From a virus, in the IMG/VR virus record IMGVR_UViG_3300010371_000077, positions 1-35,658 of that record: 35,658 nucleotides of DNA, one strand, 5' to 3'. Made by a program: the position numbers and the translations under genes. The notes below the pieces were generated by a model. It had not been told where the DNA came from and made no database searches. It saw only the letters and a list, made by a program, of their open reading frames with translations. Position 1 is the first letter of the stretch; each line of letters begins with the position of its first letter. Below are positions 1-34,011 of this stretch, piece after piece.

Positions 1-114
1 CCCTCGCAGCGGCCCCCGCAGCGGCCCCCGCAGCGGCCCCCGCAGCGGCCCACGCAGCGTCCCACGCAGCGGCCCACGCAGCGTCCCTCGCAGCGTCCCA
101 CGCAGCGTCCCTCG
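1..114. repeat. 12-bp tandem repeat inside a coding region
   Basis: About nine copies of a 12-bp unit (GCAGCGGCCCCC with G/T, C/A and C/T variants) run from the left edge to about 114. Read leftward in the frame of the gene that starts at 613, each unit encodes four residues, giving a (R/W/G)(D/A)AA repeat. Variation is mostly at a few fixed positions, which is compatible with a translated Ala-rich helix. The array continues past the window edge, so its full length is unknown. Confidence 0.9.
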
Positions 115-2504: not shown

Positions 2505-2524
2505 ATTCTATAATCTTCTAGAAT
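2505..2524. promoter_or_regulatory. Dyad operator candidate between divergent HTH genes
   Basis: ATTCTA at 2505-2510 and TAGAAT at 2519-2524 form a perfect 6-bp inverted repeat with an 8-base spacer. Two short perfect palindromes flank or overlap it: GAATATTC at 2501-2508 and TTCTAGAA at 2516-2523. The site overlaps the -10 of the rightward promoter and the spacer of the leftward one, which is where a switch repressor would be expected to bind. Confidence 0.55.
2509..2514 (+). promoter_or_regulatory. Rightward -10 element (TATAAT) for the repressor-like gene
   Basis: A consensus TATAAT at 2509-2514 has no good -35 at 16-18 bp. The expected start, near 2521, is within about 10 bases of ATG 2530, and no Shine-Dalgarno is present, so the message would be nearly leaderless. 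Leaderless or near-leaderless repressor mRNAs, as for lambda cI from PRM, are known in phages. Confidence 0.5.
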
Positions 2525-2529
2525 TGTCA

Positions 2530-2967
2530 ATGGGCGAATCGCAGGGAGATTCCGAACTCGTTAAACGGATGGTGAAGGCGACCGCCGGAATGTCCCGTCA
2601 GGAGCTGGCGGAACTGCTCGGCGTGGACGCGTCATACGTCACGCACATCCGGAACGGCCGAATTCCCACGCGGGTCAGGAAGGAGATCAAGACCCGGATC
2701 GTCGCCTATCTGAATTCCGTTCCGTCGGCCGGGGAGGGTGCGGCCGGCCCGGTCCATCCAGGCGGCGTCAGCGGGTATGATGCTGGCTATGCCGCCGCGC
2801 TGCTCGAGCTCATAGAGGCTGATGCCCGGCGAATCGCCGAACGCGCGTCCTTGGCGCGGATGCGCCTTGCCGGCATGGCGACGCCGCCGGCCGATCCCGA
2901 GTTTCCGGCGCCGATCCTCACGCCCTTAGCGCCCGAGGGCGAGGGCGAGGAGCAGCGGCGCGCATGA
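2530..2967 (+). CDS. HTH transcriptional repressor-like protein
   Basis: 145 residues from ATG 2530; a TTG at 2524 would add two. An HTH is clear at about residues 20-50: SRQELAELLGVDASYVTHIR followed by NGRIPTRVRKEIKTRI, the Xre-type pattern of Q-x-LA-x-x-LGV-x-x-S-x-V. The C-terminal 80 residues (GYDAGYAAALLELIEADARRIAER) look helical and may mediate oligomerisation. No LexA/CI-type Ser-Lys peptidase motif is seen, so RecA-driven autocleavage is not supported. It diverges from the HTH gene at 2449 and shares an operator region with it. Confidence 0.75.
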   Translation: MGESQGDSELVKRMVKATAGMSRQELAELLGVDASYVTHIRNGRIPTRVRKEIKTRIVAYLNSVPSAGEGAAGPVHPGGVSGYDAGYAAALLELIEADARRIAERASLARMRLAGMATPPADPEFPAPILTPLAPEGEGEEQRRA

Positions 2968-4203: not shown

Positions 4204-4237
4204 TGGGTATTGACACAGGGCATACCCAGTGTAAATT
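4204..4237 (+). promoter_or_regulatory. Promoter with overlapping 7-bp inverted-repeat operator
   Basis: A -35 TTGACA (4210-4215) is followed by 16 bases and TAAATT (4232-4237, 4/6), giving an expected start near 4244. TGGGTAT (4204-4210) and ATACCCA (4222-4228) form a perfect 7-bp inverted repeat with an 11-base spacer. It brackets the -35 and is placed for repression by a dimeric HTH protein. This promoter should drive the genes from 4317 to 6584. Confidence 0.65.
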
Positions 4238-4241
4238 CAGT

Positions 4242-4270
4242 GTGTCGGGGTCGCTCAGACCGACCGACAC
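4242..4270 (+). other. 5'-leader hairpin
   Basis: GTGTCGG (4242-4248) pairs with CCGACAC (4264-4270), and an inner TCG/CGA pair extends the stem around a CTCAGAC loop. If transcription starts near 4244, the hairpin sits at the very 5' end of the mRNA, where it could protect the message from 5'-end-dependent decay. It ends 46 bases before ATG 4317. Confidence 0.45.
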
Positions 4271-10100: not shown

Positions 10101-10303
10101 GATCTGAAATTCGTGGTGAACACGTATACCAGAAACCACGCGACATAGAGCGCCAGAATGGCGACCGGGATCTCGATGGGAACGAGAACAAGCCACCATG
10201 ACACGGAAGTCGCGTGCGTGATCTTGGCAGCGATTATCCCCGCAGTGGCGACAATCCAAAACGCTGCGATCGTAAAGACGATAACTGCCGTTTCTCCTTT
10301 CAT
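10097..10303 (-). CDS. Two-TM protein, holin/antiholin candidate
   Basis: 68 residues from ATG 10303, which overlaps the endolysin stop and has GGAG just upstream. Helix 1 is VIVFTIAAFWIVATAGIIAA and helix 2 is WWLVLVPIEIPVAILALYVA. Short termini carry few charges. Immediately after the endolysin and before another two-TM gene, this is a typical holin/antiholin position. Confidence 0.6.
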   Translation of the reverse strand: MKGETAVIVFTIAAFWIVATAGIIAAKITHATSVSWWLVLVPIEIPVAILALYVAWFLVYVFTTNFRS

Positions 10304-10806
10304 GCGGCCCTCGGCGTTACGTATCCAATGACGCGAGTGAGATCCACGGTCTTGAGCGTCGCGAGTTCGCCGTTGCGCGAGAAGCCCGCGCCAGAAGTGT
10401 TGCCCTCGAAATCCATCTTGATCGGTACGATCGACGCGAGACACACGCCGATATGCTCGGCCGGCTCGTGGCCGTTGTTGCCGTAGAGCACGGCGCAACC
10501 GAGTGTGGGTTCGCCGGTGAAAAGATTCTCACGCAACGCCCACTGTCGCCACGTTTCTGCAATCGCCGGATGCCATCCGCGAGCATTGTCGACCGGAGGC
10601 ACCGCTGCGCCGCAGTCGGCCCACACTGTTGCAGTCCAGAGCGCGCACCAATACGATGCCAAGGGAACGCCCCAGCGTTTACACATCGCGTCTATCTCAG
10701 GCGAGCGATTCGAGAGCGGCGGATTTTCGAGGATGGGGATGTCCTGCTGCGCGCGACGGATGATCGCCTGCGCGAGATCCGGGGTGTCGGCGGGAATTAC
10801 GATCAT
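10300..10806 (-). CDS. Endolysin, CHAP/NlpC-P60-type amidase/peptidase
   Basis: 168 residues from ATG 10806 (ATGA overlap). The core fits small CHAP-like phage lysins: RSPEIDAMCKRWGVPLASYW, a catalytic Cys54 in the YWCALW context, then GCAVLYGNN and His118 in AEHIGVCL. FEGNTSGAGFSRNG follows, as in TIGR02594-type proteins. The expected activity is cleavage of peptidoglycan stem or cross-bridge peptide bonds. No signal peptide is seen, so export would need the neighbouring holin candidates. No separate wall-binding domain is evident. Confidence 0.75.
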   Translation of the reverse strand: MIVIPADTPDLAQAIIRRAQQDIPILENPPLSNRSPEIDAMCKRWGVPLASYWCALWTATVWADCGAAVPPVDNARGWHPAIAETWRQWALRENLFTGEPTLGCAVLYGNNGHEPAEHIGVCLASIVPIKMDFEGNTSGAGFSRNGELATLKTVDLTRVIGYVTPRAA

Positions 10807-11273
10807 GCGCGCGCCCTCGGCTTTCTGCGTCGCGCCGGCTGTTGCTGCTGCGCCTCGATCGCGCCCACGACGCGATCAACGAGCGAGCCCTGTTTCTCGA
10901 TCCGATCCTCCATGCGCTCCATGGTGTGCGACACGTTCGACATTGTCGTCTCGAGCTTCACCAGAATGCGGGAGAATTGCGGCCATTCGTCGAGGATCTT
11001 GCCCTGCGCGAGAGCGGACGCCGAGAGCGCCCTGACCGTGTCCTCCAACGCTTCCGTCTTGGCGTACCACGAATCGCGCTCCTGGGCGTCGCGCGCGAAG
11101 ATCCGCTCCCGCAAATGCTTTTCGAGCTGCGCGCTGCACTGCTTCATCGCGGCAACCCATCGTTCGTTTCGCCACGGACGGATCAGCGCCCATACCCAAC
11201 CGATGGCGATACTGATCGCGCCAATCCATTTCGCCCACAGCGGCACGTCCGGTATGTCGAGAGCGAACGGCAT
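10803..11273 (-). CDS. TM plus coiled-coil protein, first gene of the lysis module
   Basis: 156 residues from ATG 11273, the first start after the intrinsic terminator at 11304-11345. The ATG at 11315 lies in the terminator stem and is rejected. One TM lies at about residues 12-30 (WAKWIGAISIAIGWVWALI). A long helical region follows (AQLEKHLRERIFARDAQERD, LETTMSNVSHTMERMEDRIE), ending in a basic QQQQPARRRKPRARA tail. It could be an i-spanin or a holin-associated protein. It overlaps the endolysin gene by four bases. Confidence 0.6.
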   Translation of the reverse strand: MPFALDIPDVPLWAKWIGAISIAIGWVWALIRPWRNERWVAAMKQCSAQLEKHLRERIFARDAQERDSWYAKTEALEDTVRALSASALAQGKILDEWPQFSRILVKLETTMSNVSHTMERMEDRIEKQGSLVDRVVGAIEAQQQQPARRRKPRARA

Positions 11274-11303
11274 CGGTTGTAACCTGTTGAGGGTGAGAAC
11301 ACG

Positions 11304-11345
11304 AAAAACGGCCATCGCGCCCCTGTGCTTCGGGGCGAAATGGCC
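11304..11345 (-). terminator. Intrinsic terminator A upstream of the lysis module
   Basis: On the minus strand GGCCAT (11345-11340) and CGCCCC pair with GGGGCG and ATGGCC (11315-11310), separated by a two-base internal loop and an 8-base apical loop. A T5 tract (11308-11304) and CG follow. It is a clear Rho-independent terminator, about 60 bp downstream of promoter-like element A and about 30 bp before the first lysis gene. Confidence 0.8.
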
Positions 11346-11407
11346 GTGGTCAAACGGTCTGGTCTGGCGATCTCTGTCGAGCTAAAAACTGTCTACATCG
11401 TGCTGCT

Positions 11408-11436
11408 AGTGTACACCAAAACAAGCGACCGCGCCA
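11408..11436 (-). promoter_or_regulatory. Promoter-like element A
   Basis: TACACT (11413-11408) is preceded at 17 bp by TGGCGC (3/6 to TTGACA). The element GTGTACACTAGC and downstream words (ATGTAG, TCGCCAGACCAG) are shared with cassette B at 30315-30445. Transcription from here would run about 95 bases into terminator A. The -35 is weaker than in B. Confidence 0.5.
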
Positions 11437-11448
11437 GCGGGAAAGTAC

Positions 11449-21697: not shown

Positions 21698-22356
21698 TCA
21701 CTGAGTGCGAAGGATGTACGGCACGTCCGGCGGGCGCGATCCTTTGGCGGGCGCCTGCGTCCAGATCAGTGTGTTCCACCGATGCGACTCCGCGGCTTTC
21801 GCGCGGAGCCAGTCGAGATACGCGAGCAATCCTTCGCGGATTGGCCACGTCAGGACGTGCTCGATGCGCTCGGGGTCGAAACCCGCGAGCTCGCGGACGA
21901 CGACGTTCCAATCTCCACAGTCGATGTCGGCCCGGTCTCGCCACTTGGGGCCGTTGTACTTTGGCCCGTCGAAAAGCTCGGGGAAGGCGGCGACGATCTC
22001 GCCGCTCTTAGAAAAAAACTCAGCAACTCCGTGGCGACGAGGTCGGAGAGTGCGACAAACTCGTCGGGATTGGTGAGGTTACCGAAATATTCAGCGTTGG
22101 CGGCCGCACGCGCTGGCGACCATTTCACGCCGCGCTCGACGAGCAAGCCCGCGAGCAGCTTGGGCACGCAACCGGTGCCGAACACGCGCGCGATGAATGC
22201 CGCGAGATCGTCGCCCGGCTTGTCCAGTCCCGCCGAATACACGATGTCCATCACGTACGCGTGCTGCGCAAACGTCAACCACTCGGGGGGCGCAAACTGC
22301 CTCCCCCCGAGCGTGATAACGCCGCGCGCTTCTGATACTTCCGCTTCCGCGACCAT
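21698..22356 (-). CDS. Tail assembly chaperone, G-T-type -1 frameshift fusion
   Basis: From ATG 22356 the zero frame gives a G-like protein (GVITLGGRQFAPPEWLTFAQ, then GTGCVPKLLAGLLVERGVKW, NLTNPDEFVALSDLVATELL). A -1 step at T7 (22018-22012) enters a coding frame that runs to TGA 21700-21698: EIVAAFPELFDGPKYNGPKW, LAGFDPERIEHVLTW, LLAYLDWLRAKAAESHRWN, PPDVPYILRTQ. The fusion is about 219 residues. Without the shift the frame runs to 21850 with a low-complexity Ser/Pro end (168 residues). Lambda G/GT chaperones use the same trick; both proteins bind the tape measure during tail assembly. Confidence 0.85.
21987..22018 (-). promoter_or_regulatory. Programmed -1 ribosomal frameshift site
   Basis: The slippery heptamer T-TTT-TTT lies at 22018-22012 in the correct X-XXY-YYZ phase. 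Six bases later (CTAAGA) a perfect 7-bp stem begins, GCGGCGA (22005-21999) with TCGCCGC (21993-21987) around GATCG. Spacing and structure are close to ideal. The downstream frame is clearly protein coding, so frameshifting is well supported. Confidence 0.85.
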
Positions 22357-23900: not shown

Positions 23901-24511
23901 GCGACAGCCACCGCCCTGCCGTCAGCGGCGCGCGGCGCGCGTTGCGTTGTACGCTGGCCCTGACCTGCAGCGGGATCGAACCCTCGGAGGTAATTCGCGA
24001 TCGGCGGGATCACGTCGGTGCGAACAAACGCCGCCGGCAGCCCCAGGAACTTGCGCGTCGCCTGGTTCGGTCCAGCGTAACCCCTCCCGTGCTCGTCCTC
24101 GACGTTGGTGCCAAACGTGAGAGTCGTAGCCGACGCGGCGGCAATGCTCCACTCTGCGTCGGGGAGCGTGAGCGAGTTGCGGAGCGCGAGAGTCCAGTGG
24201 AGTATGCGCTCGACCGGCCCCTCGCTCGACGGCAACCGATAATGCCCGTGCCTGTGCTCCCGATCATAGACGGTCTCGGCGGCGAGCGGCTTCCACGCAG
24301 CCCCGAGCGGCGCGCCCTTGTTGTCAAAGACACGAGCCTCGAGCGCGCGGAGATTTGCCGTCACCACTTCCCACGCGGGACGCAGATCGTCCATGTTCTC
24401 GTATGCGCGAACGGCGAAATTGCGCACACCCTGACCGTCGACGTTGAGCGTGATCTTCGCAAACAGTCCTTCGTTGCGCGCCGCACGCCCCGAGAATGAT
24501 GTGATCGCCAT
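23897..24511 (-). CDS. Virion morphogenesis protein (Mu gpG / Phage_tail_S-like)
   Basis: 204 residues from ATG 24511, which joins the upstream stop as TGATG. The core ARVFDNKGAPLGAAWKPLAA and RILHWTLALRNSLT, then TTLTFGTNVEDEHGRGYAGP and TRKFLGLPAAF, is the signature of the Phage_tail_S/gpG family (morphogenesis of head-tail junction). The N-terminal start (NVDGQGVRNFAVRAYENMDD) is also typical. It is involved in joining heads and tails. The C-terminal 20 residues are Arg/Ala-rich. Confidence 0.75.
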   Translation of the reverse strand: MAITSFSGRAARNEGLFAKITLNVDGQGVRNFAVRAYENMDDLRPAWEVVTANLRALEARVFDNKGAPLGAAWKPLAAETVYDREHRHGHYRLPSSEGPVERILHWTLALRNSLTLPDAEWSIAAASATTLTFGTNVEDEHGRGYAGPNQATRKFLGLPAAFVRTDVIPPIANYLRGFDPAAGQGQRTTQRAPRAADGRAVAVA

Positions 24512-24966
24512 CAGTAGGTACTCAGGTTGCCGATCGCCTGATCGGATAGCGCTGGCGTCCGAAGGTTGTCGGGCGACGTCGATCCAACGCGGATCTTCTC
24601 AACGACCGTTGCCGCGAACTGATCCGGCAGGAGATCGATCTCGGATACGACCTCGGTGTACGCGTCCTCATACGGCTGGGTGAGCTTCATCACGTCGACC
24701 GCTGCATAGCCGATCGATGCGCGGCGCAACACCCACGCGGCCACCTTCTTCACGATACCGCGCTTGAGCAACGTGGCGGCATCGGTGCCCGCGCCTGGCT
24801 CGACGCCCAGGCTACGCACGACGCGCACGCGCAGCACCGTCGTCACGTCCTGAATCTCGGCCGTGACTTCGGTGTCGGTCGGAGTTGTCGCACCGCTAAA
24901 GCCCGCTTGAAAGAGCGACCTCAGTTCGTTGGCGACATCCGCGTGTACGGCGTACGTGGCTGGCAT
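24511..24966 (-). CDS. Head-tail connector, gp6/gp36-like
   Basis: 151 residues from ATG 24966. It is mostly helical: NELRSLFQAGFSGATTPTDT, then VTAEIQDVTTVLRVRVVRSL and GIVKKVAAWVLRRASIGYAA, ending in AYTEVVSEIDLLPDQFAATV. Size, helix content and place directly after the capsid block match the connector (DUF1320 in Mu-like phages, gp6 in HK97). The product should sit below the portal. Confidence 0.65.
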   Translation of the reverse strand: MPATYAVHADVANELRSLFQAGFSGATTPTDTEVTAEIQDVTTVLRVRVVRSLGVEPGAGTDAATLLKRGIVKKVAAWVLRRASIGYAAVDVMKLTQPYEDAYTEVVSEIDLLPDQFAATVVEKIRVGSTSPDNLRTPALSDQAIGNLSTY

Positions 24967-24981
24967 CGGCGCGGTCTCGTC

Positions 24982-25341
24982 TTACTCGGCGTCGTTCGCG
25001 TCTTCTGCGGACGCTTCGGCTGCGCCCTCCGGAGATCCCTCCGGAGATCCTTCTGTCGCTGCTTCCGGCGCTGCTTCGCGAGCGGCGTATGCTTCGGGCG
25101 TCTCGGCCTCGCCGTCACGAACGAGGATCGCCGCGGCCTTCTCGTCCGCGATCTCGAACGGCTGGCCGGGCTGGACGAATCGGCCCAGCAGTCGTCCCTC
25201 CGCATCGTCGGGATGCAGCAGAATGGTTTTCTTTGCGATCAGCTTCACGGTCTCGACCTCGATTGAGGGATCTGCCGACGAACCGGCACCAGTTGCGGTG
25301 CCGGCCGTCATGGCAGAGTGATTTCGATTTCTGCGGCTCAT
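24982..25341 (-). CDS. Acidic head-region protein
   Basis: 119 residues from ATG 25341. After a short Ser/Thr-rich start, a compact unit reads VETVKLIAKKTILLHPDDAE then RLLGRFVQPGQPFEIADEKA. The last 45 residues are low complexity and very acidic (PEAATEGSPEGSPEGAAEAS). A 12-bp direct repeat (TCCGGAGATCCC) encodes the GSPE repeat. Similar small proteins (Mu gp35-like in position) follow the capsid gene. Role unknown. Confidence 0.6.
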   Translation of the reverse strand: MSRRNRNHSAMTAGTATGAGSSADPSIEVETVKLIAKKTILLHPDDAEGRLLGRFVQPGQPFEIADEKAAAILVRDGEAETPEAYAAREAAPEAATEGSPEGSPEGAAEASAEDANDAE

Positions 25342-25354
25342 TTACTTGCGGCCG

Positions 25355-26332
25355 TTACAGCGAGTTGAGCACGTTGGTGAGCGTGTACGCCGCACCGTCG
25401 ATCAGCTTCCGCTCATCGCTGTACGTGCGCGCATCGAGGTACAGGGTGCGCTCCCGAGTCTCGTAGTCCTGCGTGATCACCTGGCCGTTGGTGCTCCGTG
25501 CAGCGCCGCGGAATGCGTTCTGCCACACGTACGTGTAGCCGAATGCTGGAGCCTGGCGCATCGGAGCGTTCGGGCGCCAGAACAGCGTCACGTTGTCGCT
25601 CCACACGCTCGAGAGCGTGCCGGATTTGAAGGCGCCCGACATCGCGCCCGCGAGCTGGCTCGACGCCGGAACGAGAATGTTCTCGACACCGAAGATGAGC
25701 TTGAACGCCTCGATGTTGAGCACGCCGGGGACGAGGGTGGTGGATCCGCCGGTGATGAACGACTTCACGTCGGCGTTCTGCTTGAGGAACTCCATCACCT
25801 CCCACGGCACGATCGCGTAGTTGGGGCGCTTCCCGATCTTGTTCTTCACCGCGAACTTGGCTGCGTTGATGTTCGTGAGCGGTGTGGAGTTCGCCTGATC
25901 CCACTTGGTGCCGGGAGACGACGTGCCGGTGACACCGGCGCAGATCGCGGCGACGCGCACTTCGCGGTTCAACAGCAACCGCTCGGTGACGAGGTTCGTC
26001 TTCGTCACCTTGACCTCGTACGGCGCGCCCTCGGCGTTGTCCGCATCGACTTCGTCGTCGTGGATGGTGACGCCCTTGGCGCGCTCGAAGGTGCCGTACA
26101 TATCGTCCTGGAACTCGGCCTTGACGATTCCCGGGCGCTGACCCATTCCGATCTTGTCGTCGCCGTTCGCGTCCGGCTGCAGCGCCGACATGTCGTTCTC
26201 GAGGATCTTGCCGTGCTGCTTCGGCACGAGCAGCGTCGGGAGCACCTGCTCCGCGATGTAGTCGTCGTTCTTGTAGTCGACCGACACCTGCGACAGGCGG
26301 GTGTCGATGACAAGCTGTTTTGGTGAGGGCAT
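25355..26332 (-). CDS. Major capsid protein
   Basis: 325 residues from ATG 26332. Long strands and loops are typical of an HK97-fold capsid protein: the N-terminal arm MPSPKQLVIDTRLSQVSVDY, an E-loop-like DDMYGTFERAKGVTIHDDEV, NYAIVPWEVMEFLKQNADVK, VENILVPASSQLAG and FWRPNAPMRQAPAFGYTYVW. It lies downstream of the protease/scaffold and decoration genes, as expected. It should form the icosahedral shell after cleavage of scaffold by the protease. Confidence 0.8.
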   Translation of the reverse strand: MPSPKQLVIDTRLSQVSVDYKNDDYIAEQVLPTLLVPKQHGKILENDMSALQPDANGDDKIGMGQRPGIVKAEFQDDMYGTFERAKGVTIHDDEVDADNAEGAPYEVKVTKTNLVTERLLLNREVRVAAICAGVTGTSSPGTKWDQANSTPLTNINAAKFAVKNKIGKRPNYAIVPWEVMEFLKQNADVKSFITGGSTTLVPGVLNIEAFKLIFGVENILVPASSQLAGAMSGAFKSGTLSSVWSDNVTLFWRPNAPMRQAPAFGYTYVWQNAFRGAARSTNGQVITQDYETRERTLYLDARTYSDERKLIDGAAYTLTNVLNSL

Positions 26333-26375
26333 GGCCCGGGATCTCCGTTACGTGTGAGTGAGTGTGGTGGCTGCG

Positions 26376-26771
26376 TTACGGCGCGACGTCCAAGCCCGAG
26401 AGCCGGATCACAGGAACGAGCTCGCCCGCTGCCGCTGCGGCGGACAGTGCGCGTGCCTGGTAGTGCTTGGTCGACACTGCGGTGATCCAGCGACCGGTTG
26501 CATCGACCGTGAGATACGCGTGCAGCGCGAACGCCGCACCCGCCAGCACGTAGCATGTGCCGCCGTGTCCGACGTGCACGGAGACTCCGTCGTTCTGGTT
26601 CGCCAACTGATCCAGCGCGACGACGCCCTCGACGAACGCGTCGAGCGTGGGGAGCGTGACGCCGCCCTCGGATGCGCCGGCCATCACGCCCATTCCGGGC
26701 GTGAGCTGCGTCGCCGACTCGTTGTTGTAGCCGATGACGTGGAGCGACGGCGTGATGTGTTTCGTGTTCAT
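26376..26771 (-). CDS. Capsid decoration protein, DUF2190-like
   Basis: 131 residues from ATG 26771, three bases after the protease stop. The beta-barrel signature is TLDAFVEGVVALDQLANQND, then VSVHVGHGGTCYVLAGAAFA, HAYLTVDATGRW and AAAGELVPVIRLSG. It resembles the DUF2190 family of small capsid-stabilising proteins encoded between protease and major capsid protein, as lambda gpD is in position. Expected to bind the outside of the mature head. Confidence 0.65.
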   Translation of the reverse strand: MNTKHITPSLHVIGYNNESATQLTPGMGVMAGASEGGVTLPTLDAFVEGVVALDQLANQNDGVSVHVGHGGTCYVLAGAAFALHAYLTVDATGRWITAVSTKHYQARALSAAAAAGELVPVIRLSGLDVAP

Positions 26772-26774
26772 GGG

Positions 26775-27947
26775 TTACTTGCTCCCGGTGGAGGTTGCGG
26801 CCTTCGCCTTCTCGTCGGCCAGTTCGCGCTCGGCGAGAATGAGTGCGTCGCCGAACTTCATGTCCTTGTTCTCCTTCTTGATCTTCTTCACGCGCTCGTC
26901 GAGCAGCGTGTCGTAGTCCTTGTTCGCGTCCTCGCCTTCGGTTGCCTTGCCTTCGCCGATCGGCACCACCTTGGGCATCGCTGCCAGGATCTCTTTCGTC
27001 GCGGTGACGACGGCTGGCGTGTCGCTCAAGAGCTTCAGCCGGAAATCCGGCTTCTGCGCTGGCGTGATGTGTCCGGTGCGGAGACGCTCGTCGAGCAACA
27101 CGTCGGCGTCGCGCTCGCGGTCCTTCCGGGTGAGCGTGGCGTTCTGTTCGGCCAGCGTCTTGACGGACGCTGCGATCTCTGCCGGCGTGGCCGTCTCGGC
27201 CAGATTCACGACGCCCCGAATCGTTGCGATTGCGGTCGTGCTTGCCGTTGCGTTGTCGGACAGCGTGCGGGCCGACTGGATCTGGCCCTGCATCACTCCG
27301 ACGGCCGCCACGATCTCAGGCTCCGACGCGTCGGGCTTGAGACCGAGTTTTTCTGCGATGGTCTTCATGGGGGTCTCGGTGGTTAGTTGGACTGCGTCGA
27401 ACTCGGCGAACAACTGCGTTGTCCCGCGCACTCGCGCATCGTGCGCGTCGCCGAGCGTGAGCGGGTGCATCCCTTCGATGTAGGGCGTGTTGGTGAGCGC
27501 GAAGCCCTTGAACACCTTGCCGACGAGCTTGCCCGTCGCCTTGTCGTGGTATCGCGTGTCGAAATCGGCCGAGGTGTAGCGATACTCTTTCGCCTGGATC
27601 TTCTCGCGCGCGGGTTTGGTGGGCTCGAACAGCGCCCACAGCTCCGTGTCGTTGTTCCGGAGCTCGAGCTGCGTCACTTCGCCTGCCGCGATCGCGTTAC
27701 CAGAACCATCGGCGCGCGCGATGCCGTGATCGTAATCGGCGTATACGAATTGCCGCGCGCCAGCGTCGAAGTTCTGTTTGAGCTCGCGGAGATCGGCCGG
27801 CGTGATCGCCATATCGCCGTACGACGGATGCTTCCACGCGCCAGTGGCCAATACCTGCTGCCACGTCGCTGACGCATCGGCGAGCAACGCGACGGGCGCC
27901 GTGAAGTGGTAGCGAGAAGGCGATTGCACTGTGGTTTGCATCGTCAT
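26775..27947 (-). CDS. Mu gpI-like head maturation protease / scaffold
   Basis: 390 residues from ATG 27947 (ATGA overlap). The first 190 residues match the Mu-like protease: FVYADYDHGIARADGSGNAI, LWALFEPTKPAREKIQAKEY, RYTSADFDTRYHD and GFALTNTPYIEGMHP. The rest is helical scaffold (EKLGLKPDASEPEIVAAVGV, ADVLLDERLRTGHITPAQKP, charged C-terminus). An in-frame ATG 27368 (Met194) lies exactly at the start of the scaffold part. In Mu, gene Z is an internal in-frame product of I in the same place. It cleaves scaffold and capsid N-termini during maturation. Confidence 0.8.
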   Translation of the reverse strand: MTMQTTVQSPSRYHFTAPVALLADASATWQQVLATGAWKHPSYGDMAITPADLRELKQNFDAGARQFVYADYDHGIARADGSGNAIAAGEVTQLELRNNDTELWALFEPTKPAREKIQAKEYRYTSADFDTRYHDKATGKLVGKVFKGFALTNTPYIEGMHPLTLGDAHDARVRGTTQLFAEFDAVQLTTETPMKTIAEKLGLKPDASEPEIVAAVGVMQGQIQSARTLSDNATASTTAIATIRGVVNLAETATPAEIAASVKTLAEQNATLTRKDRERDADVLLDERLRTGHITPAQKPDFRLKLLSDTPAVVTATKEILAAMPKVVPIGEGKATEGEDANKDYDTLLDERVKKIKKENKDMKFGDALILAERELADEKAKAATSTGSK

Positions 27948-30304
27948 GCGGCCATCCCTTGCGCGTCACCCTGACCGCTGCCGTCGCCGGTGCCGCTCGC
28001 GAGGGCGTAGATGTAAACGCAGCGGCAGTGATCGCCGCCCTCGCACTGTGGATCAGGCAAGTCGGGCGCGGATGGATCGCCGAAGTCGTATTCATCGCCA
28101 TCCTGGGCGGCGCAGACATCGCACGTATTGCTGTCGAGCACGGCACTACGCGTCTGCGTCTGTATATCCGACCCGAACAGCTGGCCGGTTTCGACGCGGC
28201 CCTGACCGAAGGACACGTTCAACACCTGCGACACGCGGGACTCGACAGCGCCGACCGAGCGGTCTTCCAGGTCGCTCTGGACGCGTTGCGCCAGCGCGTT
28301 GAAGTCGATCGCGTCGGCACCGGCGCTTCCCGCGTTCGCCGCTTCATCGCGGACAGCCGACAACGCGGAACGCTGCGCACCGACTTCGCGCGCGTTCACC
28401 TCCTGCGTGGTCGCGACGTCGACAAGCGAGCGAAGGAATGCCGCGAGGCCGCCGTACAGATCGGGCTCGGCAAGCCAACGCTTGAGTAGGCGCTCGGCCA
28501 GCGTGCGAGGTGCGGGACCGCTGGCGCGGGGCGCGGGCGGCGAGCTCACGTCGAGGCCCTGGCGGCCGAGCTCAGTGAGGACGGACTCGCGACCCAACGC
28601 CTCGGCGCGCTGCGCTGCACTCGCGATCGCCTTTTTAAGAGCGGTGACGAGCCTTGGAGGTACGGCGACAGCGGTAATCTGCGCGGTCAAGACTTCGCCG
28701 CCTTTCTCGGCGAGCGCCTTGACCTGCGACACGAGCGACGTATCGATCTGCTTCAAGACGTCATGCACGTCGGCCGATGCGCGAACGGCTTCACGGTCCA
28801 GCGCGTCGGACAAGAGCGCGGGCTTCATCGCCGTCGCTTCCAGTGCCACGACCTTCGCCGGACGCAAGCGCCCGATGTGGTCAGGCGCGAGCGCTGTGGG
28901 ATCGACGGAGGCGCCGTTTGCCGGATCGGACAGTGTTGCCGTAGCAGCTGCGCCAGGCTCGCCATTGCCCGGTCCCGGGATCGGTGACGCTGGCGAGCCC
29001 GCGCCAACGCCGGGCGAGTTGGGTGGAACGCGCTTGGTGCCCTCCGGAACCGGCGGAAGCGCAGAGATTGCAGCCCGCGCGTTGATACGCTTGGCGAGTT
29101 CCTCGACCGTGATCTCGGGTAGCTCGAGCTCGTCGCGTAGCGCGACCATGTCCTCGGGCTCGAGCTTGAGTCCGGCCGTGACAGCCAAGCCGATCGCCGT
29201 GAGCAATTCCTGCACGCCGGCCAGCGTCACGCGAACGGTGAGCGCCGGCACCTCAACCGACTCGCCGAAATTCCAGCGCACGAAGGGCGTCAATATCTGT
29301 CGGCGCACCAGTGTCGCCAACCGCTCAGCCGATCCTTGCAACGCGCTCCGCAAATTCTCGGTGAACGACACGCCCAACGCGCGGTTGCCGGTATTGCCGC
29401 TCGTGCCGAGTTCGGTGAGCTGGCTCAGCGTGTTTTTCGCGATCTCGGCCGCGAGCGACGCGAGTTCCTCGACTACTCCGGTCGCGTTCGGAACGTTGCC
29501 GCCCTTGATGTCGAGGGTCGTGCCGAACGGCACCGCGAGATAAGTCGACGATCCGCTCCGGAAGTTCTCGAGCGCCTCGTTGATCGCTATCTTGACTTCG
29601 TCGTCCGCGCCCTCGGGATACACGGCGGTCGGAGTGCCTGCGCCGAAGCGGTCATGGTGCCAGAGGCGCGTCTTCCGGATCGTGTCCCGCTCCAAAAACG
29701 CGCGATAGCTCGATCGTATGAGCGCCGTGCCAGAGTAATCCGAGCCCTCGCGCTGATTCACGGCCAGCAACAGGTTGTCGACCGGGACATCGATCTCGAT
29801 GTATCCCTTGTCCATGTCGTTGGTGTACTGCGTGAGGAACAGGGGCTTGCGCGCCTCGTCCAGCTTGAACGTGCGCACCGATTCCGGGCGGATGCGCGTG
29901 ATCGACGTGCAGTGCACGCGACCGTCAACGTCGGAGTAATTCCAGAGCGGCTCGGCGGCCGCAAATCCGAACTGGAAATAGCTGAGCAAATGCTCGAGGA
30001 TGTCCTCGAACAGCGGCGGATCATACGGCGCCGTCTGGTCGCTCGAGAACAGTTCGTCGCGGCACGCCTCGGCCACGTCGTCCTCGCCGTCCACGTCCCA
30101 CCGCGCGCCCAGGATCGGCTTTTCGATCGCCGCGAGCGACACGTTTACCGCTCCATCGCCGCGCCGCATCCGCGTGTAGACGCGAGCACGCTGCGCCATG
30201 AACTGCAGGGCCGTGACGTACTCGTCGCCGACGACCTCGCGATTGATGGTCGTCGTGCCCGTTGCGGCGATCGGAAGCGGTAAGTCCTTCGGCGAAGGGG
30301 CCAA
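27944..30304 (-). CDS. Portal (DUF935) fused to MuF minor head domain
   Basis: 786 residues. The first start in frame is TTG 30304 (an in-frame TGA is four codons upstream), with no good ribosome-binding site. The start is inside the leader after terminator B. Residues about 1-450 are a DUF935-type portal (YVTALQFMAQRARVYTRMRR, YFQFGFAAAEPLWNY, DVPVDNLLLAVNQREGSDYS, LTELGTSGNTGNRALG). A Pro/Gly linker follows. The C-terminal region is MuF-like, ending in TQTRSAVLDSNTCDVCAAQD and CEGGDHCRCVYIY, with clustered Cys. In Mu these are two genes; here they are one polypeptide. The portal forms the packaging ring, and the MuF part is ejected or stays inside the head. Confidence 0.8.
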   Translation of the reverse strand: MAPSPKDLPLPIAATGTTTINREVVGDEYVTALQFMAQRARVYTRMRRGDGAVNVSLAAIEKPILGARWDVDGEDDVAEACRDELFSSDQTAPYDPPLFEDILEHLLSYFQFGFAAAEPLWNYSDVDGRVHCTSITRIRPESVRTFKLDEARKPLFLTQYTNDMDKGYIEIDVPVDNLLLAVNQREGSDYSGTALIRSSYRAFLERDTIRKTRLWHHDRFGAGTPTAVYPEGADDEVKIAINEALENFRSGSSTYLAVPFGTTLDIKGGNVPNATGVVEELASLAAEIAKNTLSQLTELGTSGNTGNRALGVSFTENLRSALQGSAERLATLVRRQILTPFVRWNFGESVEVPALTVRVTLAGVQELLTAIGLAVTAGLKLEPEDMVALRDELELPEITVEELAKRINARAAISALPPVPEGTKRVPPNSPGVGAGSPASPIPGPGNGEPGAAATATLSDPANGASVDPTALAPDHIGRLRPAKVVALEATAMKPALLSDALDREAVRASADVHDVLKQIDTSLVSQVKALAEKGGEVLTAQITAVAVPPRLVTALKKAIASAAQRAEALGRESVLTELGRQGLDVSSPPAPRASGPAPRTLAERLLKRWLAEPDLYGGLAAFLRSLVDVATTQEVNAREVGAQRSALSAVRDEAANAGSAGADAIDFNALAQRVQSDLEDRSVGAVESRVSQVLNVSFGQGRVETGQLFGSDIQTQTRSAVLDSNTCDVCAAQDGDEYDFGDPSAPDLPDPQCEGGDHCRCVYIYALASGTGDGSGQGDAQGMAA

Positions 30305-30323
30305 TTTCTGAGGTCAGGGAACG

Positions 30324-30364
30324 AAAAAAGGCCACCCGGCTCCAGAGATCGGAGCTGAGTGGCC
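30324..30364 (-). terminator. Intrinsic terminator B upstream of the portal gene
   Basis: On the minus strand GGCCAC (30364-30359) and GCTCC pair with GGAGC and GTGGCC (30335-30330), with a three-base internal loop and a 7-base apical loop. A T6 tract (30329-30324) follows. It lies about 45 bp after promoter B and about 20 bp before the portal start. Stem ends, T tract and following bases resemble terminator A. Confidence 0.85.
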
Positions 30365-30414
30365 GTGGTTGCGGGCCTGGTTGGCGAGCTGACTACATGA
30401 TGCTACGTGGCGCT

Positions 30415-30443
30415 AGTGTACGCGAGTTACCGCGCGGCGTCAA
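30415..30443 (-). promoter_or_regulatory. Promoter B
   Basis: TTGACG (30443-30438), a 17-base spacer and TACACT (30420-30415) make a good sigma-70-type promoter. The TGA stop of the upstream gene lies within the -35. Expected start near 30408, so the primary transcript would be about 85-90 bases and end at terminator B unless read through. GTGTAC and CTACAT words are shared with cassette A. Confidence 0.65.
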
Positions 30444-30646
30444 GGTTTGATGGGAATCCAGCGGCGACCATCGGGCTGCTCGAGGACGATCTCGCTACCC
30501 ATGCGGCGTTGCTTTCCGCATAGGCACGTGTCCCGGCCGATGACGAAGATGTGAGTCGGTTCGTCATCGTCCGCGTACCTGCGCGGGCATGTTGGCCGCG
30601 CGCCCTCACCCGTTGCGTCGGCGCCGGAAGTCGTCCATTGCGTCAT
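30440..30646 (-). CDS. Small Cys-rich protein
   Basis: 68 residues from ATG 30646 (ATGA overlap). After a Gly/Ala/Thr start, TCPRRYADDDEPTHIFVIGR followed by DTCLCGKQRRM supplies three Cys and a His, a plausible small zinc knuckle as in many phage accessory proteins. The C-terminus is VLEQPDGRRWIPIKP. It ends right at promoter B. Function unknown. Confidence 0.65.
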   Translation of the reverse strand: MTQWTTSGADATGEGARPTCPRRYADDDEPTHIFVIGRDTCLCGKQRRMGSEIVLEQPDGRRWIPIKP

Positions 30647-30975
30647 CGCTCCTCCGCTACAATGTCGCGTATCTCGCTGCGGACGCGCTGAACGTCGACA
30701 AGTGGGTCCGTATTCGCGTCATCCCACGGCGCGACCGATGTGCCCGCAATAGTCGCTGAAGTATGAGACTCCCCCGAAAGACGGATAGTCATCACGCGCT
30801 TGCGGATGTCGTGCTCAACCGTCAGGCCGATGCTGCCGAGGCCGCCTTCGTCGTACTTCTGGAGTTCATCTTCGGAAACTTCAATCTCTGTGAAGCCAAG
30901 ATTAAGCAGCGCGCCGGCGCATGCGATGGCGAGGCGTCTGTAGTCTCCCGCGTCGAGCTTCCGTCCTTGAGTCAT
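30643..30975 (-). CDS. Hypothetical protein between terminase and portal
   Basis: 110 residues from ATG 30975 behind a strong GGGAGG site. It reads DAGDYRRLAIACAGALLNLG, FTEIEVSEDELQKYDEGG and LTVEHDIRKRVMTIRLSGES, an alpha/beta mix. It overlaps the next gene by four bases. It begins 21 bases after the terminase stop. No family recognised. Confidence 0.65.
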   Translation of the reverse strand: MTQGRKLDAGDYRRLAIACAGALLNLGFTEIEVSEDELQKYDEGGLGSIGLTVEHDIRKRVMTIRLSGESHTSATIAGTSVAPWDDANTDPLVDVQRVRSEIRDIVAEER

Positions 30976-30996
30976 CGTTTCCTCCCTCTCGCAAAG

Positions 30997-32760
30997 CTAG
31001 TACTCCCCGCCGATCGCCGCGAGCACCATGCTCGGCGTCGTTTTGGGCAGTGGTTTGGTTTCGCGCCCCGGCTGGTAAATCCGGTTGATCACCTGAGTGG
31101 TCTGGTCGACCTGGTCGTCGTGGCTGCCAGCCGGGAACGCCGCGTGCTCCTCGATGTAGTTGTGCACCCATTCAGCCATGTCCAGCCCGAGCGCATCGTT
31201 CCTGACCGTGCGTGTGGACACGTAGCGCGGATCCAGCCACGAACCGGAAACCTCTGCAATCTTCCGCCAGTAGCGTGCGCGCTCCAATGCGAGCCCGACC
31301 CCCGGCAGGAATACGTTTCCCGCCTCGATGATCGGCGACGCCGCATGTGCTCGCGTGATTTTGCCACCATCGGGGTCGATCGGAATCAAGCCCGGGATCT
31401 CGCGCTTTAGCGTGTCGATCACGGCGGTCCCGTTGGCTTTGTCCTCGACCAGCTTCATCGACATGCGCGGCCACGCGATGCAGACGGCTTTCATCCCGGC
31501 GAGTGTGTTGACGAAGCTCAACCGCGCGCGAATCTGGTCGAGCAGGTAGAGGTCGGCTTTCAACCGACCCCACACGCCGAACACGACGAAATCGGTTCCT
31601 TTCGTGTCCTTGAACGTGCAGTCGAGGGACAGCACGATCTGCTGGATGACGGGCGGCATCTTCTCGTAGAACTTCCACCACGTGCGCTGAAATATCCCGC
31701 CGTCCGCGACGCTCGGGTTCTGTTGATGCTGCGCCTCGTAGTCGGCCGAACCGAGATCGGTTTTGATTTCTTCCACGACCGATTCCGGGAACATGCCCGG
31801 AAAGAGCAACTCGCCGCGCTTCTGGCGCGGATCCTTCCATCCGATCGAGGTCCGCGACTGGCGCTCGGGTATGTACTCGGTCGGCAAACACAGGTGATCG
31901 TAGCCGCCGCGGCGGAGCTGCTTGCCGGCCAGGTCGTCGTGGTGCAACCGCTGCATGATGATCACGCGGCAATCGCGCTGCTTGTTGTTGAGTCGCGTGG
32001 ACATCCCCTTGAACCACCAATCGGCTGCCTTCTCGCGCCGCTCCTCGATGTATCGGTGCAGCACGTTAAGCGGATCGTCGACCACCACGATGTTACCACG
32101 GTGGCCTGTCGAGCCGCCGCCAACCGTCCGCGCCAGGCGCTCACCCATCCGCGTGTTACGAAAATATCCCTTCACGTTCTGGTCGCTCGACATCTGCCAG
32201 TCGGGCGCGAACGTCTCGCGATACCAATCCGATTCCAAGAGGTTGCGACATTTGACCGAGTCGCGAATCACGAGCTCGTCATCGTACGATGTGAAGATAA
32301 AGCGCGCGCCGGGCCAGAACGTCCACACCCACGCGGGCCAGAATACGCAGACGAGCAGCGACTTCATGTGTCCGGGCGGCACGTTGACGATCAGATCTTG
32401 TAGCGCAGCGGCCAGTGCCCACGCGAGCGATTTAGGATCCTGATACGGCCCCATCGTCTTGGGCTGCGCGTGCCGCGTCACGGCTTCCAGGTGGAGCGCG
32501 ATGGCGTCGACGTGCCACCCCGAAACGAACGGCGTGTCAGGTTCCAGCACGTGCCAGCCGCCTTCCACGAAAGAAGCGAGCGACACCGTCGGGTACCTGA
32601 GATCTCCGGCTTCGATTATCGGTTCGTCGTCGGTCTCCGCTTCGCTGTCGTCCTCGCCGAACACGTCGTCGAGTGCCGCAGCCCAGGGGTCGCCCGACTG
32701 CGCAACGAGATACTCCTCGAGCGACGGTCGGGAGCTCGACGAGCTAAGGACGGATGCCAC
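30997..32760 (-). CDS. Terminase large subunit
   Basis: 587 residues from GTG 32760, overlapping the small subunit by 17 bases. The ATPase has Walker A NVPPGHMKS (126-134) and Walker B IVVVDDP (224-230). The C-terminal nuclease is RuvC-like with LSLDCTF (Asp380), LVEDKANG (438-444) and SHDDQVD (546-552), a Mg-binding acidic triad. It packages DNA into the head through the portal and cuts the concatemer or chromosome. The first 80 residues are Ser- and acid-rich. Walker A has His-Met where Arg-His-Gly is common. Confidence 0.9.
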   Translation of the reverse strand: MASVLSSSSSRPSLEEYLVAQSGDPWAAALDDVFGEDDSEAETDDEPIIEAGDLRYPTVSLASFVEGGWHVLEPDTPFVSGWHVDAIALHLEAVTRHAQPKTMGPYQDPKSLAWALAAALQDLIVNVPPGHMKSLLVCVFWPAWVWTFWPGARFIFTSYDDELVIRDSVKCRNLLESDWYRETFAPDWQMSSDQNVKGYFRNTRMGERLARTVGGGSTGHRGNIVVVDDPLNVLHRYIEERREKAADWWFKGMSTRLNNKQRDCRVIIMQRLHHDDLAGKQLRRGGYDHLCLPTEYIPERQSRTSIGWKDPRQKRGELLFPGMFPESVVEEIKTDLGSADYEAQHQQNPSVADGGIFQRTWWKFYEKMPPVIQQIVLSLDCTFKDTKGTDFVVFGVWGRLKADLYLLDQIRARLSFVNTLAGMKAVCIAWPRMSMKLVEDKANGTAVIDTLKREIPGLIPIDPDGGKITRAHAASPIIEAGNVFLPGVGLALERARYWRKIAEVSGSWLDPRYVSTRTVRNDALGLDMAEWVHNYIEEHAAFPAGSHDDQVDQTTQVINRIYQPGRETKPLPKTTPSMVLAAIGGEY

Positions 32761-33349
32761 GGATCTTGTTGTTGATTCGCTTAATGATGCGCGCCGCCAC
32801 GGTTTCGTCGGCCACGTTGTCCCGGATCTCGCCTTCGATCACGCGCTCGGTCGCGAACAGGAACCGGCGCAACTGATCGTACGTGATCGCGTTCCGGCTC
32901 TGCATCGTGACGACGCGCTCGGCCATCCGGCTCAATCGCTCGGCGAACTCGACGGCGTTGGTGACGTCCAACTCTGTATCCGTCTCCGCGCGCTCGATGA
33001 AATCCTGCAACAGCCCGCGCACGAGCGCGATCTCGGGCAGGATGTTGAGTGGGTCCGGCTGATCTTCGTGTTGCTTCACCAGGTCGCGGATGCGCGCGGA
33101 CGCGACGTTCTCGTAACGCCTGCGCATTCCGTGCACGACCTTGGTGTCGCCCCCTCCGTCGTGGAACTTGCAGCGACCGGTGCCGTTGTGCTCGGTGCGC
33201 AAACCCGCCTTGTTCCGGCAATATTTCTTGCGGCGAGGATTCCAGGCCCGGCAGTAGTAATTGGGCTCGAGCTTGCCCTTGTGCTCGGTCGGAATCTCGC
33301 GATCGTCGGGAACGTCGTCCGGTGTCGGCACTTCGGCGACCGCAGTCAC
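32744..33349 (-). CDS. Terminase small subunit candidate
   Basis: 201 residues from GTG 33349 (GTGA overlap). The N-terminal third has a Cys/His set: NYYCRAWNPRRKKYCRNKAG, then GTGRCKFHDGGGDTKVVHGM. That is a zinc-binding pattern found in many phage small terminases, followed by a helical region (ILPEIALVRGLLQDFIERAE, EFAERLSRMAERVVTMQSRN). Position directly upstream of the large subunit supports it. Its role would be to bind the pac/cos site and stimulate the ATPase. Confidence 0.75.
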   Translation of the reverse strand: MTAVAEVPTPDDVPDDREIPTEHKGKLEPNYYCRAWNPRRKKYCRNKAGLRTEHNGTGRCKFHDGGGDTKVVHGMRRRYENVASARIRDLVKQHEDQPDPLNILPEIALVRGLLQDFIERAETDTELDVTNAVEFAERLSRMAERVVTMQSRNAITYDQLRRFLFATERVIEGEIRDNVADETVAARIIKRINNKIRGIRP

Positions 33350-33711
33350 TTTGCCCCCGGCATGTGCAGCCCGAAAAACGCGATTACATCGGGCAAATCC
33401 ATGCGCTCGTGCTGTATCAGCTCGACTTCGTCCGCGTTGACATCGAGCACGAGGAGCCAGTTTCTATCCATGCGATACACCCAGAAATGCGCGGCGCATC
33501 GCGTGTGCGGATCGATCGCGTCCCGGTGCGCGCATTGTGGCGTCGCAGCTATCGGCCGGTCATGGATTTTGATCGGCTCGTGGTGGTACGGGCATCGTAT
33601 CAACTCCTGGTGCGCCGGCGCGAATCTCCGCACGCGTAGCATGCCGTCGAGCCAGTACAAGCCGCTCGGCGCTGCTGCCTGCGACTCCGGACGTGCCGCG
33701 ATTGCGCTCAT
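33346..33711 (-). CDS. Hypothetical protein next to terminase, His/Cys-rich
   Basis: 121 residues from ATG 33711; a GTG 33726 would add five. The centre reads RCPYHHEPIKIHDRPIAATP then QCAHRDAIDPHTRCAAHF. Its clustered Cys and His could bind a metal. The second half (FWVYRMDRNWLLVLDVNADE, VELIQHERMDLPDVIAFFGL) is an alpha/beta unit. The start is just downstream of a GTGTACACT element that may serve as a leaderless promoter. Function unknown. Confidence 0.65.
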   Translation of the reverse strand: MSAIAARPESQAAAPSGLYWLDGMLRVRRFAPAHQELIRCPYHHEPIKIHDRPIAATPQCAHRDAIDPHTRCAAHFWVYRMDRNWLLVLDVNADEVELIQHERMDLPDVIAFFGLHMPGAK

Positions 33712-33717
33712 GACGTC

Positions 33718-33726
33718 AGTGTACAC
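33718..33726 (-). promoter_or_regulatory. GTGTACACT element before the terminase gene block
   Basis: GTGTACAC (33719-33726) is a perfect palindrome and contains TACACT on the minus strand (33723-33718), six bases before ATG 33711. It matches the element in cassette A (TTGG-GTGTACACT context). No good -35 is seen at 16-18 bp. It is either a weak promoter or a protein-binding site shared by three leftward modules. Confidence 0.4.
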
Positions 33727-33750
33727 CCAAGCGCGTGCGAAGTGTGAGGG

Positions 33751-34011
33751 TCACTTGGTTTTGGGCACTTCGTCGTAGCATCGCTGGCAGAGATGTACGT
33801 CGTCGTCGGTGTAGCGGACAGCCGGACGAGCGTAGCAGCCCTCGCAGTCGTCGAATGCACGGCGGGAGTGGTTGAAGCCCGCGCGGACTCCGCGAACGAA
33901 ATGCGTCCGACTGATCTTGCGGGCCACCTCTCGCCAGAGTGCGCCGGTAATCAGCCCCGACAGGAGCATCGCCAAGCCGAATGCGAAGAACGCCGCCGTT
34001 TCACCTCCCAT
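33751..34011 (-). CDS. Membrane protein with zinc ribbon
   Basis: 86 residues from ATG 34011, with AGGA upstream. One TM lies at about residues 5-25 (AAFFAFGLAMLLSGLITGAL). A basic linker (REVARKISRTHFVRGVRAGF) is followed by DCEGCYARPAVRYTDDDVHL and CQRCYDE, two CxxC pairs that form a zinc-ribbon-like module. Predicted to be membrane anchored with a cytoplasmic zinc domain. Role unknown. Confidence 0.7.
   Translation of the reverse strand: MGGETAAFFAFGLAMLLSGLITGALWREVARKISRTHFVRGVRAGFNHSRRAFDDCEGCYARPAVRYTDDDVHLCQRCYDEVPKTK

Follow-up and report, generated by a model that had tools for sequence, protein, structure and literature searches.

In phages lambda and 21, the pR'-tR'/Q system places a sigma70-type promoter, a short leader and an intrinsic terminator before the late and lysis genes, and in lambda the Q gene precedes pR'. 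Two operons of phage HK022 each begin with one of a pair of cis elements; these put sites form structured RNA before the terminators of early operons. In Pseudomonas aeruginosa, a single antiterminator, AlpA, acts on two operons, including lysis genes, the terminator lying immediately ahead of the first gene (PMC7969949), and GafZ is responsible for antitermination of the phage-like structural cluster of the Caulobacter gene transfer agent (PMC11150451).

The window, i.e., the whole stretch of 35,658 nt analysed here (IMG/VR virus record IMGVR_UViG_3300010371_000077, GC 64%), contains two short cassettes, A and B, that share features with each of these systems. As in lambda, and judged by sequence, a late promoter has an intrinsic terminator behind it, ahead of the first late gene; as with the AlpA targets, two operons including lysis are preceded directly by terminators; and as with put, paired cis elements front two operons of one phage. 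By analogy with the lambda and AlpA layouts, one phage antiterminator may act at both cassettes. We consider it probable (about 0.6) that A and B are paired late-gene control elements, loading cassettes for a common antiterminator, B serving the head and tail genes and A the lysis genes.

Structure of the Two Cassettes

The late genes are read leftward in the order ORF C, TerS, TerL, two small ORFs, cassette B, portal, protease, major capsid, tail genes, cassette A and lysis (Table 1). Elsewhere, the window contains a CI-like HTH gene (2524-2967, plus strand), a promoter-like TTGACA-16-TAAATT at 4210 (plus) overlapping a TACACT at 4233 (minus) in the region ~4210-4250, and about ten tandem repeats of 12 bp (CCCNCGCAGCGG) at the contig end (1-120).

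Table 1. Cassette elements and adjoining genes in the window
Feature	Position	Strand	Remarks
Endolysin	10300..10806	-	Weak PHROG endolysin match; stronger in G011 homologue
First gene of presumed lysis module	10803..11273	-	G011 homologue at same place (37%); adjoins endolysin
Cassette A, whole	~11444 to 11304	-	-10 box, leader, hairpin with U-tract, then first lysis gene
A, terminator	11304..11347 (hairpin 11347-11308)	-	Stem with 1x1 mismatch, then U-tract; compensatory changes across cassettes
A, leader	11348..11401	-	54 nt from predicted start ~11401; box TCGCCAGACCAG at 11370-11359
A, GTACACTAGC	11405..11414	-	-10 box TACACT (11413-11408) and initial bases; invariant in four cassettes
A, TTTCCCGCTGGCGC block	11431..11444	-	Covers -35 position; non-coding, after upstream gene's stop codon; identical in A of G011
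Portal gene	27944..30304	-	First gene behind B; phrog_113; TTG start at 30304 uncertain
Cassette B, whole	30443-30324	-	TTGACG-17-TACACT, leader, hairpin, U-tract, then portal
B, terminator	30324..30366	-	Second strongest terminator-like hairpin; shape as in A
B, leader	30367..30408	-	42 nt from predicted start ~30408; box TCGCCAACCAG at about 30387-30377
B, GTACACTAGC	30412..30421	-	-10 box TACACT (30420-30415); shared with other cassettes
B, -35 box TTGACG	30438..30443	-	17 bp from TACACT
ORF C	33346..33711	-	121 aa, Cys/His-rich; 84% identical in G011; positional candidate antiterminator

The initial annotation had described a leftward TACACT promoter-like element, a strong terminator and then a lysis gene, and the present analysis bears this out: no other terminator-like hairpin in the window, on whichever strand, is as strong as that of cassette A (9 bp, a 1x1 mismatch, 6 bp and an 8-nt loop; about -29.9 to -30.5 kcal/mol, z = -6.2). 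The stem is followed by the U-tract GTTTTTCGT, and the first lysis gene lies ~35 nt further. The RNA would measure ~92 nt from the predicted start to the stem end and ~98 nt with the U-run included, in agreement with the default transcript of about 95 bases that had been suggested. A generic terminator scan missed cassette A, the mismatch in the stem being the probable reason. Upstream, 17 nt separate TTTCCCGCTGGCGC from TACACT; there is no TTGACA-like -35 box in A, and a conserved CTGGCG lies at 18 bp from the -10. An in-frame ATG at 11315, in the 3' arm of the hairpin, recurs in G011 (L045 1455, MAVFR...), and it may provide the first lysis gene with a second start codon, giving a dual start in both phages.

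On the leftward strand, TTGACN-15..19-TAnnnT occurs just once, in cassette B, and this holds for the window and for G011 alike; the hairpin of B is followed by TTTTTTCGT. Among terminator-like hairpins, A ranks first and B second (-26.2); the next leftward hairpin scores -19.8 and the best rightward one -23.7. The portal gene behind B has neither an ATG nor a GTG start in the window, and in the more distant relative G008 a CTG is the sole start that takes in the conserved portal N-terminus (L037 10148).

In local alignments within the window, each cassette has the other as its best match, with a score of 44 (30 for the next non-overlapping stretch); 0/5000 dinucleotide shuffles reached this score, none exceeding 34, and GTACACTAGC is expected 0.012 times per window. 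The words that had been listed as common to A and B were confirmed in part: GTGTACACTAGC (11416-11405, minus strand) has a near copy at 30423-30412, but TCGCCAGACCAG reads TCGCCA-ACCAG in B, and the shared word ATGTAG, found as ATGTAG or ATGTAA in three cassettes, is missing from cassette B of G011. A start-stop (AUG-stop) function of this word, lacking in the fourth cassette, was dropped. Between the hairpin and the start codon, none of the four cassettes of the two phages has a TAnnnT -10-like motif; the first genes would therefore depend on read-through, as previously claimed for the lysis genes, and a lysis promoter located after the hairpin finds no support.

Conservation in Related Phages

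The pattern GTACACTAGCN{35,62}ACCACGGCC was searched in 2.9 million viral contigs and matched two, L040 by chance and L041, which is part of the IMG/VR phage G011 (30,795 b); both cassettes are present in G011 and were found again with a second pattern. One precedes the lysis genes and the other precedes HNH-TerS-TerL-portal-capsid. G011 (L045 and L046) has the lysis genes, tail-end genes, ORF C and cassettes in common with the window, and its head module is unrelated (compared with window 24000-33000): the head proteins belong to phrog_9, 12 and 10 in G011 versus 38, 113 and 1005 in the window, and none of the window head proteins matches G011. To judge from these sequences, the difference is a clear mosaic exchange adjoining cassette B, and the same pair in front of non-homologous head modules indicates that the cassette outlived the replacement of the genes behind it. 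The anatomy of promoter, leader, terminator and lysis gene, with a twin in B, as originally described, thus holds beyond the window, next to unrelated head genes.

Cassette A aligns with its G011 counterpart with a score of 119 and cassette B with a score of 82, both above A versus B, which suggests that the A/B duplication predates the split of the two phages. The features common to A and B, namely GTACACTAGC, the leader box, ACGGCCA...TGGCC and the T-run, are kept in both phages; across the four cassettes, the -10 is invariant, and the -35 region, leader box, hairpin and U-tract are conserved. In the stem alignment (n = 4 cassettes), 96% of cells pair, falling to at most 48% in slid versions. 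Changes on both sides occur in 4/13 stem pairs, a level reached by 4/500 shuffles; with as few as four sequences, these counts are indicative only. A covariance model applied to 537 kb found exactly four full cassettes, two per phage; its other matches were reverse-strand hairpins or weak, L052 (23.6 bits) being a terminator only. The full cassette is carried by only two phages, which counts against the paired-antitermination interpretation.

A deeper relative, G008 (30,232 b), is syntenic with the window (portal 59%, TerL 56%) and has strong hairpins before the portal and shortly after the tail genes, before genes presumed by position to be lysis genes. These hairpins (L037 10097-10135 and L038 14340-14380, followed by TCACATCCC) occupy the two places of the cassettes, match each other better than anything else (score 50, with shuffles reaching 35 at most) and have the same shape, with an outer stem, one 1x1 mismatch and a 5-bp inner stem. 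Neither a U-tract nor a recognisable TACACT accompanies them, which again weakens the case for paired antitermination. A paired hairpin at both sites appears to be old, and its terminator role in G008 is only putative.

Scans with the TerL protein gave 34 loci, only G008 being syntenic; with the portal, MCP and ORF C as queries, matches were confined to G008 or G011 except for one 23% MCP match (L043), and a scan with the endolysin protein found nothing. L040 and L047 and eight GTDB pattern matches were rejected as chance matches without cassette anatomy. Genome searches for a host with the portal, the pattern, the cassette model and ORF C found none; the search of 369 genomes of the class of G012 with the cassette model and ORF C was empty, a result that proves little. 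The terminase of G011 is nearest to those of Marinobacter and Burkholderia phages; based on this affinity, a proteobacterial host with ordinary sigma70 promoters and U-tract terminators is plausible.

ORF C as a Candidate Antiterminator

In lambda, the Q gene precedes pR', and in G011 ORF C similarly precedes cassette B, its stop codon lying almost directly before the TTGACG. ORF C is thus a candidate antiterminator, on the grounds of where it lies and how well it is conserved. Pfam, PHROGs, PDB and phage records gave no match for it, and its AlphaFold model (mean pLDDT 55) is too poor to use, with no recognisable fold. Searches for a Q-family gene gave no Pfam, PHROG or PDB match for ORF C or the scanned early genes and none to lambda Q; both contigs are possibly incomplete, and the factor may therefore be a different early gene. 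A TACACT lies 5-6 nt before the ORF C ATG in both phages (window 33711-33753; G011 contig 22115-22160, minus strand), and TGACCCTCACAC is also conserved upstream of ORF C; if this TACACT acts as a promoter, the ORF C mRNA would be leaderless.

Discussion

Grouped by its likely mode of action, the locus is plausibly a pair of pR'-tR'-like switches, one on the head operon and one on the lysis operon, rather than a proven case of Q or AlpA antitermination. Unlike lambda, each phage here has two cassettes, for head/tail and lysis genes; the stem ends ~80-92 nt from the start, about half the distance in lambda; and no protein of a known Q family was found. A hexamer resembling the -10-like pause sequence of lambda's initial transcribed region (AACGAT) is present after the -10 in two of the four cassettes, as CACGAT and CATAAT, and not in the other two. 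Of the -35/-10 spacers, where lambda has its Q binding element, those of the B pair are alike at about 10/17 positions, those of the A pair are not, and no element is common to all four; the AlpA element GGGACGN5GGTA, situated between -35 and -10, is absent from all four spacers. No AlpA relative was found, and the AlpA system differs in being bacterial and chromosomal. An 11-nt part of the A-type block, CCCGCTGGCGC (11431-11441), equals part of the GafZ binding element (PMC11150451); that element is a palindrome between -35 and -10, whereas CCCGCTGGCGC overlies the -35 position in A and does not occur in B, and the match may be chance. In comparison with put, the hairpin here is itself terminator-like and the operons are late.

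If the cassettes work as paired antiterminator-loading elements, host RNA polymerase would start at TACACT, make a leader RNA of ~80-98 nt and, by default, stop at the hairpin. A phage protein from the end of early transcription would recognise the cassette, through promoter DNA and/or leader RNA, and load onto the polymerase, which would then pass the terminator. One common factor, perhaps ORF C, would in this manner turn on the head and tail genes from B and the lysis genes from A.

The poor -35 of cassette A counts against this scheme, and it also fits an ordinary boundary, in which the hairpin only ends the upstream operon, TACACT is weak or idle and the downstream genes are reached via terminator leakage. 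Both hairpins do lie at operon borders; however, the promoter stands before the hairpin, the two are conserved as a unit in four cassettes and no promoter motif lies past the hairpin, so that we regard such a boundary as distinctly unlikely. The conservation of the leader box and hairpin, in spite of a distance from the -10 that varies by ~10 nt and of differing -35/-10 spacers, would also be expected if the cassettes act via RNA instead of promoter-DNA loading, the nascent leader box and mismatched hairpin being recognised by an N/nut-like RNA-binding phage protein or, as with HK022 put, by the polymerase; the persistence of the one-mismatch hairpin shape in G008 without a U-tract points the same way. 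But the pre-hairpin leaders fold no better than shuffles, so the stably folded RNA that put has between its promoter and the first terminator was not found, an Rfam search gave no match, and the promoter is conserved as much as the leader; recognition through RNA is accordingly judged unlikely. Two short paralogous units sharing a leader box and terminator might, finally, give rise to stable small RNAs with a function at other sites, in which case the placement of the units in front of operons would be incidental; phage leader RNAs can act as small RNAs, IsrK of Gifsy-1 being an example (PMC4825925). Such a role seems very improbable, given that G011 keeps both operon-start positions despite the replacement of the head module and that G008 has hairpins at both places.

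A new kind of system is conceivable, though rather unlikely, where a phage factor outside all known families, ORF C being one possibility, would read the leader box and mismatched hairpin in RNA at the two late operons, the stop signal serving as the loading signal; the G008 hairpin would then have kept loading after the loss of the U-tract.

If the paired-antitermination interpretation is true, late-gene control in phages without a recognisable Q would be split over two cassettes, head/tail and lysis genes each being switched by one factor. The cassette stayed in place when an unrelated head module replaced the one behind it, which suggests that it is a portable control plug, and paired cassettes could help to locate unknown antiterminators by position.
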